IMG/VR virus record: IMGVR_UViG_3300046501_000355
Span: 1 to 22,188 of that record
Length of the DNA: 22,188 nucleotides
Source: a virus
Reading direction: 5' to 3' (one strand)
Of this stretch, positions 6,909 to 17,242 are shown piece by piece. Made by a program: the position numbers and the translations under genes. The notes under the pieces are model-generated. The model had not been told where the DNA came from, ran no database searches, and was given only the letters and a program-made list of their open reading frames with translations. The first letter of the stretch is position 1. Every line of letters begins with the position of its first letter.

Positions 6909-8567
6909 TTATAGCTTGCCCCAAATACTGAGCTCGCCTATCTGTGGGTTAAAACAAATCATGACGCTATCTGCCCGGTTAGGTGACGCCGTGCCATCAG
7001 GCTGTTTATTGACAAGGATTTTCCCAACACCATTTTTTGTATATGTTGGTTGTGATAACTCAGTAGTGAGCAATGCCAATTCCTTAGCATCTATATCTTT
7101 AGTAGATAGTGAAATGATCATGTCTGGATCATAATCACGGCCCTCAAGCGCTCTAAAAGTTTCCTGGAAGCGCAAACGCAATGACCACCAAGACTGGGCT
7201 TTAAGATTGGCGAAAAAGTCTTTATTAAGACGCTTCTCGACCATTTCCCCCTCAGGGTCATAAACTGAACCAGAACCTCGGAAGGATTCGACATTTACTT
7301 CGGGTAATCCCAGTTCACGGCGCTTTTCATTAATTACCCTGGCATCACCACGGCACCCAGCACCAAGACCATCGGCATCGTAAAAAAGCGTATCTATAGA
7401 TTGATCAAAGCAAAGATCCATAGCTTTTTGCGTGGTTCCAAAGATGTCATCACCTTTACCTGACCATGTGGCCAAGTACTTCATGACAACACCATGGCGA
7501 GATGCAAAAGAGTTTTTATCCTTGCCCTCATCGGCAACGTCTAAGCCGCCGATACGATCACCAGTAGGCTCAATTAGAAGCTTTTTGTGCGCATCTAATG
7601 ACGCTTGAATCCAAGCACTAGGAATCAATACACCTTCCACAGATGCTGCATAGTTAATATCAACTTCTTGGGCTAAAACGACATCGTCCAATGTTGCAAG
7701 CTGCTTTTCATACCATGGGTAAATAACTTTGCCGTTATAAGTAACAGTCCAGTTCTTATCCGGGTTAGCTCGCCAAGGCATAGTAAAGACGGCATAACGG
7801 CCGCTGAATCTATCCTGGTGAAATCGGTCACCGATACCGTTTGGTGTAGATCCTTTAATGTGGACGTTCGTGTTTTGCGAGATAGCCGCATCTACAGCTT
7901 CTTGCCGCTCTACGAATGCCCATTCATCCAAAAAGTACATAGTGGTACGACCACCACGGCCGATATTGTCACCAGCTTCACCCGTGATTGTTGCGCCGTT
8001 ATCAGGGTTAATGATGCGCATGTAGTTATCATGCACTTTCTCGACAAAGCCCTTTGGCTTTAACCATTGGGGCATTTTGCTGAACATGTCGCGGAATTTG
8101 TGGAATAGGGTTTTAGGATCACCCTTCTTATCAACTAGTTCCTCTTTACGGCTACCAACTCCCCCCGCAAAACCTTCTACAAATAACCATCTATGCAAAA
8201 AGAAACCCAGCACAACGTAGCTCATGCCTTCGTCACGCGACTTTTCAATCAAGCCGTGTGTTTGTGTGCTCTCCCGCTCAATCAACCAATCTACAAGCTC
8301 GACTTGCTTAGGTCGCAACACAAAGGGAATATTTGCGGGCAATCCAAATGACATACCGCGCGGGTCGTATGTCCAGATCCAATTGTTAAACCAATGTGCC
8401 GGATCTGTGCGGCACTTATATAACTCTGCCTGAATGCTAAGTTCGTTTTGCTCAATGGCTGCCTTGTAGTAATAACGCCGTGTCATCTCAGTCATTACTT
8501 CAGGCAAGCGTACGTTAATAGTCCACTCTTTAATTAAAGGGGCTATTTCATCTAGTGCGTATGTCAT
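6909..8567 (-). CDS. Terminase large subunit
   Basis: At 552 residues this is a full-length packaging motor. The ATPase part shows a Walker-A-like loop EKSRDEGMSY (about 108-117, a deviating form without GKT), a Walker B segment MYFLDEW (about 210-216) and a coupling motif GSTPNG (about 239-244). The nuclease part has GGLDVADEGKD (Asp343), YDADGLGAG (Asp397/399) and NRADSVM (Asp533), fitting an RNase H-fold metal site. It overlaps the small-subunit gene by four bases. The protein would cut concatemeric DNA and pump it into the procapsid through the portal. Confidence 0.9.
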   Translation of the reverse strand: MTYALDEIAPLIKEWTINVRLPEVMTEMTRRYYYKAAIEQNELSIQAELYKCRTDPAHWFNNWIWTYDPRGMSFGLPANIPFVLRPKQVELVDWLIERESTQTHGLIEKSRDEGMSYVVLGFFLHRWLFVEGFAGGVGSRKEELVDKKGDPKTLFHKFRDMFSKMPQWLKPKGFVEKVHDNYMRIINPDNGATITGEAGDNIGRGGRTTMYFLDEWAFVERQEAVDAAISQNTNVHIKGSTPNGIGDRFHQDRFSGRYAVFTMPWRANPDKNWTVTYNGKVIYPWYEKQLATLDDVVLAQEVDINYAASVEGVLIPSAWIQASLDAHKKLLIEPTGDRIGGLDVADEGKDKNSFASRHGVVMKYLATWSGKGDDIFGTTQKAMDLCFDQSIDTLFYDADGLGAGCRGDARVINEKRRELGLPEVNVESFRGSGSVYDPEGEMVEKRLNKDFFANLKAQSWWSLRLRFQETFRALEGRDYDPDMIISLSTKDIDAKELALLTTELSQPTYTKNGVGKILVNKQPDGTASPNRADSVMICFNPQIGELSIWGKL

Positions 8568-10767: not shown

Positions 10768-10809
10768 ATTTTAGAAATCTTTATACTCAAGTGTATACCC
10801 AACTGTCAA
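10768..10809 (-). promoter_or_regulatory. Late promoter (pR'-like) with pause-like element
   Basis: On the minus strand a perfect -35 TTGACA (10809-10804) is followed after 18 bases by TATAAA (10785-10780). Six bases later lies TAAAAT (10773-10768), a second -10-like hexamer at about +1 to +6. In lambdoid late promoters such an element holds sigma and pauses polymerase so that Q can load. The TGA stop of the Q-like gene is inside the -35 hexamer. A Q-binding site would lie in the spacer but cannot be recognised by eye. Confidence 0.72.
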
Positions 10810-11558
10810 GCACAAGTTTCTTGATTATCAGGAAGTTCGTATTGAAACGATCTACGAATCCTACCTCTAATCTCATTTTCCCATTGTGCAACAATAGATT
10901 CTCCAAAAAGTTCATACTTCTGGTAGCTCTTGATATATGCGGTTTTAGTTGCTGTAATTTTCGCAATATTCATTTTCTCATTTAACGTGTAAGGGCGCTT
11001 ACCTGTGCCATCACACTTATTGCAAAATACTGCCCCGTTAGGGTTGCCTTTTGAATTGTAAGTTTCAAGCTTACCAAGCCCCTGACAAGACCCACACATA
11101 GCCTTAACAAATAAATGGCTACGTAAAACTATCTCAGCTATCCCTTTTGCAAGATTAGTTAAATCACCTTGAGCATTAGTAGGCTTAAATTTTTTCTTTA
11201 TCATTTCTTTGTGGATTTTGACTGCCAATTTGTTTCGAGCTCTAAAAAAATCACCTGACTTAATCTCACCACGAACAAACTCTACCTTTCCGGGAATATC
11301 CTCAATACGGCGCTCTGTCTCAAAGTTAAAATCAAACTTACTAACAAATGTCTCAGTTTGCTTTTGAGCTGGGGTAATGATTGCTATGCGCTCAAAATCT
11401 ACCTTTTCAACAAGCAAAGTAGCCCATAATCTAGCATCTGGTGATAGAAGCCCTAGTTCACCTAAAACAATATCTTTAGAAATCTTTTTACCTTCTGCCT
11501 TACCTTGAGCGATAGCAAGGCGAAGTAACTCAATAAAATCAAACTTTTCAACTAACAT
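10806..11558 (-). CDS. Q-like late antiterminator with zinc finger
   Basis: The 250-residue protein has a DnaJ-like zinc-binding region, CGSCQGLG (Cys155/158) and FCNKCDGTGK (Cys179/182), followed by a helical segment (YTLNEKMNIAKITATKTAYIKSYQKYELF) and a basic C-terminus. Lambda Q shows the same arrangement of CxxCxGxG pairs followed by a C-terminal helix. Q proteins bind DNA at the late promoter, join paused RNA polymerase and make it ignore terminators. The location supports this strongly: a strong promoter overlaps its stop codon and a terminator lies just beyond. AGGAAGG lies five bases before the ATG. Confidence 0.75.
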   Translation of the reverse strand: MLVEKFDFIELLRLAIAQGKAEGKKISKDIVLGELGLLSPDARLWATLLVEKVDFERIAIITPAQKQTETFVSKFDFNFETERRIEDIPGKVEFVRGEIKSGDFFRARNKLAVKIHKEMIKKKFKPTNAQGDLTNLAKGIAEIVLRSHLFVKAMCGSCQGLGKLETYNSKGNPNGAVFCNKCDGTGKRPYTLNEKMNIAKITATKTAYIKSYQKYELFGESIVAQWENEIRGRIRRSFQYELPDNQETCA

Positions 11559-11618: not shown

Positions 11619-12077
11619 TCAAAATTTTGCATATCGCCCGAATACAAGCATTGCTGCATCTCGCGCATGTTCATTTGTACGTTTCGCCCACCCTGTTAAT
11701 TTCAAAAAATATTTAGCATCAGTTTTGGTTTTGTTCGCTGCTGGGTGAATCATCAAATAATTCAAACCTTGTTCAATACACCATTGCTCCCAGATCTGAG
11801 CATCACGCTTAACAGATCCAACTCCCTCCCGTGTACCAGCTCCGCTTTTCGCTTGTCGTGCATCCGCATTACCGAACCAGGTTCGCTTTCTGGCATCCTC
11901 AATAAATAATTTAATATTTTGTTTTCCATGGGCTTCAGCAAGATTTAACACTTTGCTCATTGCCTGAGTAATTGTGTGTGAGCCAACATCTTGGAGCTCG
12001 CCTCCTTTACCTTGATCAATGGCTACAGCAAAACCAGTATGCACTCCAGTATCAACCCCGATTAAAACCTTGCTCAT
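11619..12077 (-). CDS. RuvC-like Holliday-junction resolvase
   Basis: The product (152 residues from ATG 12077; a TTG one codon earlier is possible) begins with the RNase H-fold strand KVLIGVDTGVHTGFAV (Asp9), has a second acidic strand KLFIEDARKR (Glu60) and a C-terminal helix EHARDAAMLVFGRYA (Asp140). This is the acidic residue pattern of RuvC-type nucleases, which cut four-way junctions. In phages, such enzymes resolve recombination or replication intermediates before packaging. Its start overlaps the stop of the previous gene by one base (TGATG). It may work with the ERF protein encoded in the other operon. Confidence 0.8.
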   Translation of the reverse strand: MSKVLIGVDTGVHTGFAVAIDQGKGGELQDVGSHTITQAMSKVLNLAEAHGKQNIKLFIEDARKRTWFGNADARQAKSGAGTREGVGSVKRDAQIWEQWCIEQGLNYLMIHPAANKTKTDAKYFLKLTGWAKRTNEHARDAAMLVFGRYAKF

Positions 12078-12562
12078 CAAGCACCACCCTTATTTAAACG
12101 ATCCAGTTCACTAGCAAAATGGCTATACATCTGAGACTTTTCAAAATCTCTAATACGACTTAATTCGTGTGCTTCAACTCTGTATTTTTGAGCTAATTCG
12201 CCAAGTGAGTTTTTAAGCTCATCTATTTGTGTTTGTTTAAAACTCCAAGCCTTAAATTCAATTTCTCTTTCAGCCAAATTGTCTTCAGTCGAATAAATCG
12301 AGTTATAGATCTCTTGATTTGTCCCATCTCTAAAATCGCAAGCTTTGCAAAATTCTGAGTAATGCCAAGAAATAAACTCCTCTCTAGACTTAACCATTCT
12401 GATTTCATCGATACGATCACCAGTTGCTATTTCAATAGCCTTTTCTAATTGAAGTAACTCGTTGTAATCAGTGTTAGATAAACCACTGCGGTTGTATCTG
12501 CCTCGTAATTTAGCACTGCGAGCAGTTGCTTCAGCCAAATCGAAATTTTCAAGAATATTCAT
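12077..12562 (-). CDS. Hypothetical helical protein between O-like and RuvC-like genes
   Basis: The 161-residue protein is almost entirely helical and charged. One stretch contains cysteines (WHYSEFCKACDFRDG, about 68-82) and the second half reads as a long coiled coil (KAWSFKQTQIDELKNSLGELAQKY and following). It is joined to its neighbours by stop/start overlaps (ATGA with the O-like gene, TGATG with ruvC). Its position after an O-like gene is where lambda has P, a helicase loader, but no ATPase or DnaC-like motif is visible, so I give no function. Confidence 0.65.
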   Translation of the reverse strand: MNILENFDLAEATARSAKLRGRYNRSGLSNTDYNELLQLEKAIEIATGDRIDEIRMVKSREEFISWHYSEFCKACDFRDGTNQEIYNSIYSTEDNLAEREIEFKAWSFKQTQIDELKNSLGELAQKYRVEAHELSRIRDFEKSQMYSHFASELDRLNKGGA

Positions 12563-13713
12563 GCTGCTGCCCCTTTTGCTGGAGTTTTAAAACCCATTTC
12601 GATTAAATACGGAATAAACGGTTTTTGTTGCTCAGGATCTACCAGCTTTTGAGCCATGCGTTTACCTGCATCCATCCATGATTCCCCGCTATGACAAAAT
12701 GAATCTTTAAAATCAGGATGGTTTACAAGGAGACGTGCAAACATGAAAAGCTGTTTTTCAGATGCGAAGGTAATCACCTCAGGAATATGATTTTCAGATT
12801 GTGCTGATTGTCCATTTGAGTTTTTGTTTTCAAAAGAACGTGGTGCCGGTGTTTTCATCTTTGCGTATTTAGCGCGAGCTTTAAGCATCCACTCTGCAAA
12901 AAATTTAACCATGTAATCATCTGAGTGATTTCGATCTTCATTAAATCCGTTAAATGCTTTTAACTCTCTCTCAAACCAAGATGCACTAAAAATCTCGTTG
13001 GTATCAATTGACGGATTGATTGAACAAATTTCTAATTTCAAATTTTCCAAAACAAACCACGTATTTTTTTTATTTTGATAGTTTCTTTTGATAGTTGTAT
13101 TTTGTGGGTTAAAAATTTTAACCACTTGAGGTAAAAATTCTTTACCACTTGCGGTAAAAATATTTAACCACTTGCCATTTGTGGTGGTAAAAAAATTTAA
13201 CCATCTTGGTGAGTTATCAACACAACTATGCACAGAATGAAGGTGGTAAAAATTTTTAACCAGTACCGTATTTTTACCGTTCGTTTTTAAGTAAAACCCG
13301 TTTACTTTGTGAGCTAATTTGACGCCATATCCAAAGTGGTTAAAATTTTTAACCACCTCTTTATTGAACAATATAAATGTCTTAACTAAGATTTTTCGAT
13401 TCGGAAATTTAATTAGATTACCTAAATAATAAGCATCTACTGGTGAATAAACATTTCCATATTTTGATTGATGGTGTTTTTTAATCAAACCCACGTTTTC
13501 TAATTCAGTTAAACATTTAATTACGGTAGGACGGCTTTTTAAAGATAAAGCTTCAAGTTGACGCAAAGAGAGCGCATCACTCTCTTTTGTCCATCCTCGC
13601 GTCTTACGAATAATTAATAAATAGATTTTCACTGATGCATCACTGATTTTATTCATGGCTTCATCAACGAATGCGTTAGCCACCATAAATGAATTGGGCG
13701 TAAATTTACTCAT
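12559..13713 (-). CDS. O-like replication initiation protein
   Basis: The 384-residue protein has an N-terminal winged-helix domain (about 1-95): FMVANAFVDEAMNKISDASVKIYLLIIRKTRGW, then a DNA-reading helix LSLKSRPTVIKCLTELENVGLI. This matches the N-terminus of phage O-type initiators. Residues about 120-203 are encoded by a cluster of DNA repeats and consist of recurring short peptides such as VVKNF, LVKNF, WLNFF and WLNIF, so their sequence is probably set by the DNA. The C-terminal part (about 215-384) is helical and would recruit the host helicase. GAGGT lies nine bases before the ATG. The gene order cro, regulators, O, ruvC, Q follows the lambdoid early operon. Confidence 0.78.
   Translation of the reverse strand: MSKFTPNSFMVANAFVDEAMNKISDASVKIYLLIIRKTRGWTKESDALSLRQLEALSLKSRPTVIKCLTELENVGLIKKHHQSKYGNVYSPVDAYYLGNLIKFPNRKILVKTFILFNKEVVKNFNHFGYGVKLAHKVNGFYLKTNGKNTVLVKNFYHLHSVHSCVDNSPRWLNFFTTTNGKWLNIFTASGKEFLPQVVKIFNPQNTTIKRNYQNKKNTWFVLENLKLEICSINPSIDTNEIFSASWFERELKAFNGFNEDRNHSDDYMVKFFAEWMLKARAKYAKMKTPAPRSFENKNSNGQSAQSENHIPEVITFASEKQLFMFARLLVNHPDFKDSFCHSGESWMDAGKRMAQKLVDPEQQKPFIPYLIEMGFKTPAKGAAA
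13107..13354. repeat. Replication-origin iterons inside the O-like gene
   Basis: Six 17-bp near-palindromes of the form GGTWAAAAWTTTWACC lie at 13107-13123, 13130-13146, 13153-13169, 13186-13202, 13245-13261 and 13338-13354. Examples are GGTTAAAAATTTTAACC and GGTAAAAATATTTAACC. A degenerate half-site ATTTTTACC is at 13270-13278. The first three start exactly 23 bp apart, about two helical turns, and share a trailing CACTTG. They occupy the middle of the initiator gene, as lambda iterons do. An AT-rich, T-run-rich stretch (about 13045-13105) lies beside them and could be the unwinding region. Confidence 0.8.
13214..13234 (+). other. Two DnaA-box-like sequences in the origin
   Basis: TTATCAACA (13214-13222) and CTATGCACA (13226-13234) each differ by one base from the DnaA-box consensus TTATNCACA. 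They sit together in the largest iteron-free interval between the fourth and fifth repeats. This suggests host DnaA could assist initiation, but single-mismatch boxes are common in AT-rich DNA. Confidence 0.4.
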
Positions 13714-17150: not shown

Positions 17151-17171
17151 TGTCTAGTAATTCATAAAAAT

Positions 17172-17242
17172 TAAGTTATCTTAAAATTAATTTAAGAATT
17201 CTTATATTTTCACTTGACTCAAAAACTAAGTTTTCTTATATT
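17172..17242 (+). promoter_or_regulatory. Second operator cluster and early promoter (OL/PL-like)
   Basis: Three operator copies lie at 17172-17183 (TAAGTTATCTTA, the exact reverse complement of the cI-proximal operator), 17193-17204 (TAAGAATTCTTA, a perfect palindrome) and 17227-17238 (TAAGTTTTCTTA). The promoter reads TTGACT (17214-17219), 17 bases, TATATT (17237-17242), so the third operator covers its spacer and -10. A repressor bound here would silence the + strand recombination operon in the lysogen. Loops between this cluster and the central one, 2.5 kb away, are possible as in lambda. Confidence 0.8.

Follow-up and report, generated by a model that had tools for sequence, protein, structure and literature searches.

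Does the cluster of short palindromes in the middle of this O-like gene mark the place where the phage begins to replicate its DNA, and, if it does, what kind of origin would it be? Our study examined the window, by which we mean the whole stretch of 22,188 nucleotides taken from the viral record IMGVR_UViG_3300046501_000355. From the comparisons set out below, we hold it very probable that positions 13054-13354 are the replication origin of a temperate Acinetobacter phage, and that this origin is of the intragenic kind of lambda and P22, with iterons that would be read by the N-terminal domain of O. A sequence-only reading of the same DNA had proposed an iteron-type origin inside the O-like gene; the embedded repeats and their A+T-rich neighbour were indeed there, but the label of an undescribed type was too strong, and the locus appears to form a new branch within a known type. 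The gene and its repeats are located as follows.

12559-13713, minus strand: 384-aa O-like gene for the replication initiator, which contains the proposed origin (Pfam, PHROG and NCBIfam matches)
13338-13354, no strand: iteron 1, farthest from the A+T-rich element (pattern match)
13245-13261, no strand: iteron 2 (pattern match)
13186-13202, no strand: iteron 3 (pattern match)
13153-13169, no strand: iteron 4 (pattern match)
13130-13146, no strand: iteron 5 (pattern match)
13107-13123, no strand: iteron 6, adjoining the A+T-rich element (pattern match)

All six 17-bp near-palindromes claimed in the earlier reading were found in the places it gave, and three of them (13107, 13130 and 13153) follow one another at exact 23-bp steps and have the CACTTG tail in common, as it had said; its consensus had 16 letters as written, whereas the repeats are 17 bp long and take the form GGTWAAnnnnnTTWACC. 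They sit between the N- and C-terminal domains in the coding sequence of their own initiator. A scan of the whole window with this pattern, allowing up to 3 mismatches and counting both registers and strands, gave 28 matches, whereas 100 shuffles averaged 2.97 and never exceeded 9. Of the 28, 23 fall on the six iteron sites, and the remaining ones, at 7718, 12895 and 15750, carry 2-3 mismatches. The exact form occurs at the six sites and nowhere else in the window, whereas 5000 codon shuffles that preserve the protein contained at most four (a number reached 5 times). A degenerate seventh site at 13291-13305 is present in the window and in two relatives (L001 and L003) and absent from two others (L002 and L004). 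The repeats occupy all three reading frames of the gene, and the peptides that they encode are of three kinds (VVKNFNH, LVKNFYH and VVKIFNP; WLNFFT and WLNIFT; GKEFLP). Since three frames are read and three kinds of peptide result, the repeats are no side effect of one repeated peptide, and the suggestion that they force such a peptide on the protein does not hold.

Relatives of the gene were collected from three viral scans, one genome scan (8 loci, all of them in Acinetobacter), a search of genomes of the same genus (117 of 175 genomes with some match, the best 30 loci being used), a few named phages and the window itself. Pooling the 161 sources with a match yielded 95 distinct genes. We infer that the host of the phage is Acinetobacter because the relatives come from this genus. 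At least three palindromes of the form GTnAAn5TTnAC were present in the linker of 66 of the 95 genes, that of the window included, and each gene was assigned to an iteron class by the majority of its sites: class A, with G:C outer pairs, comprises 25 genes and is the class of the window; class B, with CTAGT on the left, comprises 35; and class C, whose sites have CG at the centre, comprises 6. The repeats use three reading frames in 44 of these genes and two in 22. The final two iteron steps measure 22-23 bp in 65 of the 66, the exception being L051, which is cut short, and the other steps span 17 to 102 bp; by its final two steps, the array thus has the inverted repeats at roughly 20-24 bp that characterize a lambda/P22-type origin. 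The remaining 29 genes consist of 24 of a different N-terminal type, or fragments of that type, together with the broken or cut long-O genes L044, L047 and L163, the Pasteurella gene L064 and the distant L060; class B sites lie outside the frame taken in L047 and L163 (five each) and in L044 (one). The reading frame looks broken in L038, L047 and L163, with five repeats still in each, and these genes could be decayed prophages or sequencing errors.

The loss of the repeats in close relatives, named in the earlier reading as evidence that would count against an origin, was not observed; sister groups keep a similar, although different, repeat at corresponding places. Four or more GTnCCAA/TTGGnAC half-sites stand at the corresponding place in 20 of the 21 genes starting with MSLDA, and these MSLDA-type initiators (L084, L085, L119, L125 and others) carry their own intragenic repeats ahead of a related C-terminal region. 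The O-like gene of Pasteurella phage Pmp13 (L064:2992-3804) has GTCAAAAATTTAGAC-like repeats and a lambda-like A+T-rich element. Judged by sequence, each N-terminal type is thus accompanied by intragenic repeats of its own in the long-O, MSLDA and Pmp13 cases. A named phage collection of 50,697 records contained no relative spanning 80% of the window protein and 25 partial matches, and among 390 genomes of the order the N-domain gave, besides the centre genome, 2 weak matches outside the genus.

Conservation of the repeats at the DNA level was measured as synonymous difference, scored among codons for the same amino acid in 54 of 64 genes, arranged as 24 class A genes, 18 class B/C genes and 12 short-O genes (ten class B genes are in no set). 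In class A, codons lying entirely within iterons gave 0.052 and those between iterons 0.191, and the N-domain and C-domain gave 0.457 and 0.393, respectively; the corresponding values were 0.021, 0.289, 0.378 and 0.352 in the B/C set and 0.055, 0.322, 0.456 and 0.377 in the short-O set. Synonymous change is about 7- to 18-fold lower in codons wholly inside the repeats. Codons partly inside iterons gave 0.080 in class A, 0.312 in B/C and 0.259 in short-O, the last two values indicating little constraint there in those sets, and the next 20 codons past the last iteron gave 0.025, 0.049 and 0.028, respectively. Rank tests for the iterons returned p values of 1e-14 to 2e-11, which are descriptive, since neighbouring codons and related genes are not independent. 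These values bear out the expectation, which the earlier reading had proposed as a check, that iterons are kept as DNA as synonymous sites elsewhere drift. They also bear on a rival explanation, in which a repeated peptide, or A+T-rich codon use in a flexible linker, would have produced the repeats incidentally: the linker is of low confidence in the structural model and similar peptides (VKNF, WLNxF) do recur, but the three frames with their three kinds of peptide, the ceiling of four in the codon shuffles, and the contrast in all three sets between codons inside the repeats and those between them leave this explanation with next to no probability.

Adjoining the last iteron is a second element, which consists of the following features.

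13054-13106, no strand: A+T-rich element, proposed unwinding element (composition, low synonymous change, position)
13069-13094, no strand: two tandem 13-mers, TTTATTTTGATAG and TTTCTTTTGATAG, in the A+T-rich element (similar pairs in relatives)

The sequence after the last iteron of the gene is CACAAAATACAACTATCAAAAGAAACTATCAAAATAAAAAAAA, and the element at about 13054-13106 is 77% A+T, with 64% purine in the coding strand. The A+T-rich stretch that had been reported beside the iterons is therefore present, the relevant element being the one at their low-coordinate end. As in lambda/P22-type origins, it is A+T-rich and strand-asymmetric and lies directly 3' of the last iteron. By A+T content it ranks 461 among the 22,135 52-bp windows of the stretch, so that others are richer; the most A+T-rich, at 17155-17217, reaches 90% over 52 bp and lies between listed ORFs. 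The lambda region is described in PMC5043065 as 'almost all purines in one strand', and the 64% of the window is less asymmetric.

A two-block model of the element was trained only on Acinetobacter genes (13 distinct block pairs) and applied to nine other O genes, in which the iteron ends were set by eye, except for that of lambda. In eight of the nine, Kp ST16 being the exception, its best site lies no more than 10 bp from where the last iteron ends, and in lambda O it starts at the end of iteron 4. Shuffles that scored as well as the best site numbered, out of 200, 1 for lambda, 0 for mEp043, 0 for Turner and 1 for Pmp13, compared with 23 for P22, 52 for HK225, 110 for Ab31, 120 for Kp ST16 and 178 for Yen 29.18; out of 100, there were 5-100 for six MSLDA-type genes and 15 for L060. 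As a universal lambdoid element the motif consequently holds only in part, standing clear of shuffles in lambda, mEp043, Turner and Pmp13. The reading frame of the site in the window and Pmp13 differs from that in lambda, P22, mEp043 and Turner.

How this arrangement compares with known systems decides whether the origin is of a new kind. The origin of lambda likewise lies inside the initiator gene O, after the N-terminal domain, with iterons followed by an A+T-rich element, and its four inverted-repeat iterons, at 39034, 39054, 39078 and 39101, are separated by steps of 20, 24 and 23 bp. It differs in its iteron sequence, ATCCCTCAAAACGAGGGA, in its four copies, and in the separate P gene next door; no match to the C-terminal region of the window protein was seen. 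PMC7466680 and PMC5043065 describe the lambda iterons as inverted repeats and describe the A+T-rich region; according to the former, O contains six iterons in the Stx phages P27 and 933W, and the two added ones lengthen the protein by 13 residues. These phages therefore match the window in iteron number, but their iteron sequence and O protein are of the lambda type. The annotated origin of P22 is inside gene 18, whose repeats have GGTAAA and TTTACC arms much like those of the window, spaced differently; together with those of phage Turner, they are the nearest in sequence among the nine O genes examined. The best site of the A+T-rich model stands beside the P22 repeats, with the reservation given by its shuffles. 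P22 differs also in having its own DnaB-type helicase (gene 12). Given the inverted repeats of lambda and the arms of P22, the earlier view that a long palindromic form sets the present repeats apart from lambda is not upheld.

Closer relatives are found in the Acinetobacter phages vB_AbaSI_1 and Ab1656-2, whose 'replication protein O' has the same N-domain type as the window protein (39.0% and 38.5% identity, the match covering 56% of the query), five class B iterons with three of four steps at 22-23 bp, and the same kind of A+T-rich element; the iterons are without annotation in both records. Their proteins are shorter (293-295 aa) and differ in the C-terminal region, and the 266-aa neighbour gene is annotated as replication protein P in Ab1656-2 and as hypothetical in vB_AbaSI_1.

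The part of the protein proposed to read the iterons, and two of its codons to which we return below, are located as follows.

13435-13692, minus strand: N-terminal winged-helix domain, residues ~8-93, proposed iteron reader (AlphaFold2, VIA)
13561-13563, minus strand: codon of Arg51, candidate specificity residue, which tracks class A (alignment)
13498-13500, minus strand: codon of Glu72, which also tracks class A (alignment)

Family matches point to an O-type N-terminal DNA-binding domain in this initiator. Phage_rep_O of Pfam matches residues 11-86 (E 2.4e-6; 28.4 bits, just below the cut-off of 28.7) and, with an E limit of 0.1, every one of the 30 aligned members, the best at 5e-10; NCBIfam TIGR01610 (phage_O_Nterm) matches weakly, with 18.1 bits against a cut-off of 45.5. 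Two PHROG families of 'replication initiation O-like' proteins, phrog_18020 and phrog_678, also match, over residues 1-106 and 1-223, and the best PHROG match, phrog_21732, is a family of unknown function. A full-length AlphaFold2 model, built with 29 relatives that come from viral contigs, was poor overall (mean pLDDT 58.3, with the linker of low confidence and not resolved), and the N-domain reached pLDDT 71-88 in 10-residue blocks over residues 21-90, the first two blocks having 40 and 55. The modelled domain has helices at 26-38, 50-57 and 61-74 and a beta wing, and solved winged helices of the MarR/SlyA/Zalpha type match it with VIA Z of 9.8-10.8 among the matches listed. Foldseek gave a best E of 0.03, with a TubR chain at the top of its list. 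Sequence comparison with solved chains gave nothing for lambda O up to an E of 1 and a single match, at E 0.67, for the window protein.

Whether repeats and N-domain belong together was examined with quick trees. That of the N-domain used 64 rows, 42 of them different, with residues 51 and 72 left out and the genes L038 and L051, which have no N-terminus, excluded; only 4 of its 39 inner branches are strongly supported, and on it the three iteron classes require 2 changes, the minimum. On the C-terminal tree, which used 52 of the 64 rows because the 12 short-O genes have a different C-terminus, the classes require 12 changes, and for class A no fewer than 5 are imposed by supported branches. 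In seven hand-chosen pairs with unlike classes and like C-termini, six had their best breakpoint in the interval from 6 bp before to 29 bp past the last iteron's end, and the seventh pair (L037/L073) gave a weak one 149 bp before it; two more pairs among the nine compared, L040/L007 and L062/L043, have unlike C-termini and stand outside this test. Because the classes fit the N-domain tree and the breakpoints fall at the end of the last iteron, N-domain and iterons move together. As the two adjoin, this shared movement is co-inheritance, which supports a functional match without proving it; it may reflect linkage, the conserved A+T-rich element being a favoured place for crossovers.

The same evidence bears on the proposal that the palindromes are operators of a repressor or another regulator, unrelated to replication. 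Site size and spacing are operator-like, since 17-bp sites at 23-bp steps resemble the operators of lambda, and the fold of the N-terminal domain is MarR-like. On the other side, apart from the six sites the window has no exact copy, be it beside its cI/cro-like genes or anywhere else, and none of the exact class patterns occurs in the flanks outside the O gene, over 191,132 bases for class A and 195,481 for class B, or in 48,000 bases of class C flanks searched with the B pattern; moreover, the repeat class follows the O N-terminal domain, and, as in lambda, a conserved A+T-rich element borders the end of the repeats. We therefore regard the operator proposal as very unlikely, and an origin read by the N-domain remains the preferred explanation.

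Two residues of the N-domain are candidate determinants of the iteron class. Position 51 is Arg in all 24 class A rows and Thr, Ser or Lys in all 40 class B and C rows; position 72 is Glu in the same 24 and Ile or Val in the other 40. No other column among the first 97 of the alignment distinguishes all 24 class A rows from all 34 class B rows. The close N-domains of L007 (class A) and L040 (class B) differ at 7 of 95 residues (R51T, N55D, I65V, E72V, P91L, V92I and D96N), so that a recognition rule could be tested with few substitutions. It is necessary to consider, nevertheless, that a rule by which Arg51 reads the outer G is not established: the N-domain tree has one origin of class A, which makes the perfect correlation of Arg51 a single event, and on the C-domain tree five of five supported independent pairs agree (p 0.0625), so that 0.05 is out of reach. 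Against the rule also stand L080, with Thr51 and yet a left G on three of its five sites, one of them a full GGT...ACC; L049 and L050, with Ser51 and one full GGT...ACC site each; and P22 and Turner, with GGTAAA arms and Glu at the aligned place. Given one event and G-flanked sites in class B without Arg51, we name candidates and no rule.

The features of the other half of the protein are these.

12562-13059, minus strand: C-terminal region, residues 219-384, all-helical model (phrog_18003, phrog_6643; pLDDT 76.8)
12589-12837, minus strand: C-terminal tail, residues 293-375, common to the Acinetobacter plasmid initiator RepM (NF038290)

The C-terminal model had no Foldseek match at E up to 0.001 and no VIA match with Z of at least 5, which does not show that the modelled fold is new. 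NCBIfam NF038290 (repM_Acin) matches the tail with E 4.6e-8 over model positions 222-304 of 304, at 32.7 bits against a cut-off of 250; this is a shared region, and the protein is not a RepM, as only its C-terminal 83 residues match and the rest of RepM does not. In a plasmid collection the tail was present in 120 records, all from Acinetobacter, and the best 25 of the 120 comprise 20 annotated as RepM, 2 as replication initiation protein and 3 with nothing. It matched in 92 of 299 genomes of the family of the centre genome, phage and plasmid copies being pooled, and the wider C-terminal region was also found on MSLDA-type phage initiators.

This tail could suggest that the repeats are a partition site (centromere) of a plasmid-like prophage, with the protein as an adaptor, a proposal with which the TubR chain heading the Foldseek list would also agree. 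The Foldseek score is weak, however, and many unrelated winged helices score alike; the protein falls in O-like replication families, and the initiator with which it shares its tail is a replication protein. The chance that the locus is a partition site is accordingly minute.

A helicase partner was sought in 21 hand-picked related contigs of 40-55 kb with long-O genes, which may be fragments. Neither the lambda P type (PF06992) nor DnaB (PF03796) scored above cut-off in any of the 21; the controls were detected, namely P in lambda and Pmp13 and DnaB in P22. PF06992 also failed to recognize the annotated P of Ab1656-2, and the search is therefore a weak one where P proteins are distant. One PF06992 match below cut-off (14.4 bits) lies in a 1007-aa frame on the contig of L007, and one IstB/DnaC-like match on that of L009. 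With no lambda P or DnaB above cut-off in these contigs, the tail may recruit or contact the host helicase or its loader.

Under the origin reading, the O-like protein would bind each 17-bp palindrome through its N-terminal winged helix, probably as a dimer, and several bound copies would form a compact complex, for which the three sites at 23-bp steps beside the A+T-rich element are the likely core. We infer that this complex would strain and open the adjoining element, and that the C-terminal half of O would recruit the replicative helicase of the host, probably by means of the tail that it has in common with RepM. A wider proposal, which we put forward tentatively and consider somewhat less probable than its negation, is that phage O, the MSLDA initiators and RepM, as initiators of Acinetobacter and near kin, share a C-module to which the host helicase docks directly, in place of a lambda P loader, that cassettes of N-domain and iterons are swapped at the A+T-rich element, and that a few N-domain residues, with Arg51 and Glu72 as the first candidates, set the class. 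Should the tail indeed dock the helicase, a single host contact would link the replication of phages and of plasmids in Acinetobacter. Lambda O is a founding case of origin recognition, and the Acinetobacter set offers a natural series in which the same domain faces three iteron classes at corresponding places.

As far as we searched, the iteron classes with their candidate determinants, the cassette exchange and the tail shared with RepM are new, as is the putative lambda/P22-type intragenic origin for the Acinetobacter branch. Among the open-licence PubMed Central titles listed, none concerned iterons in the O genes of Acinetobacter phages or the RepM tail as a helicase dock; older or subscription work may exist.

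Two neighbouring genes complete the description of the locus. Positions 10806-11558 encode a 250-aa protein (phrog_6172) that contains a cysteine stretch of the CxxCxG type and matches Q-like antiterminators weakly, and a Holliday junction resolvase-like gene (phrog_1770) lies at 11619-12080, two genes downstream of O.
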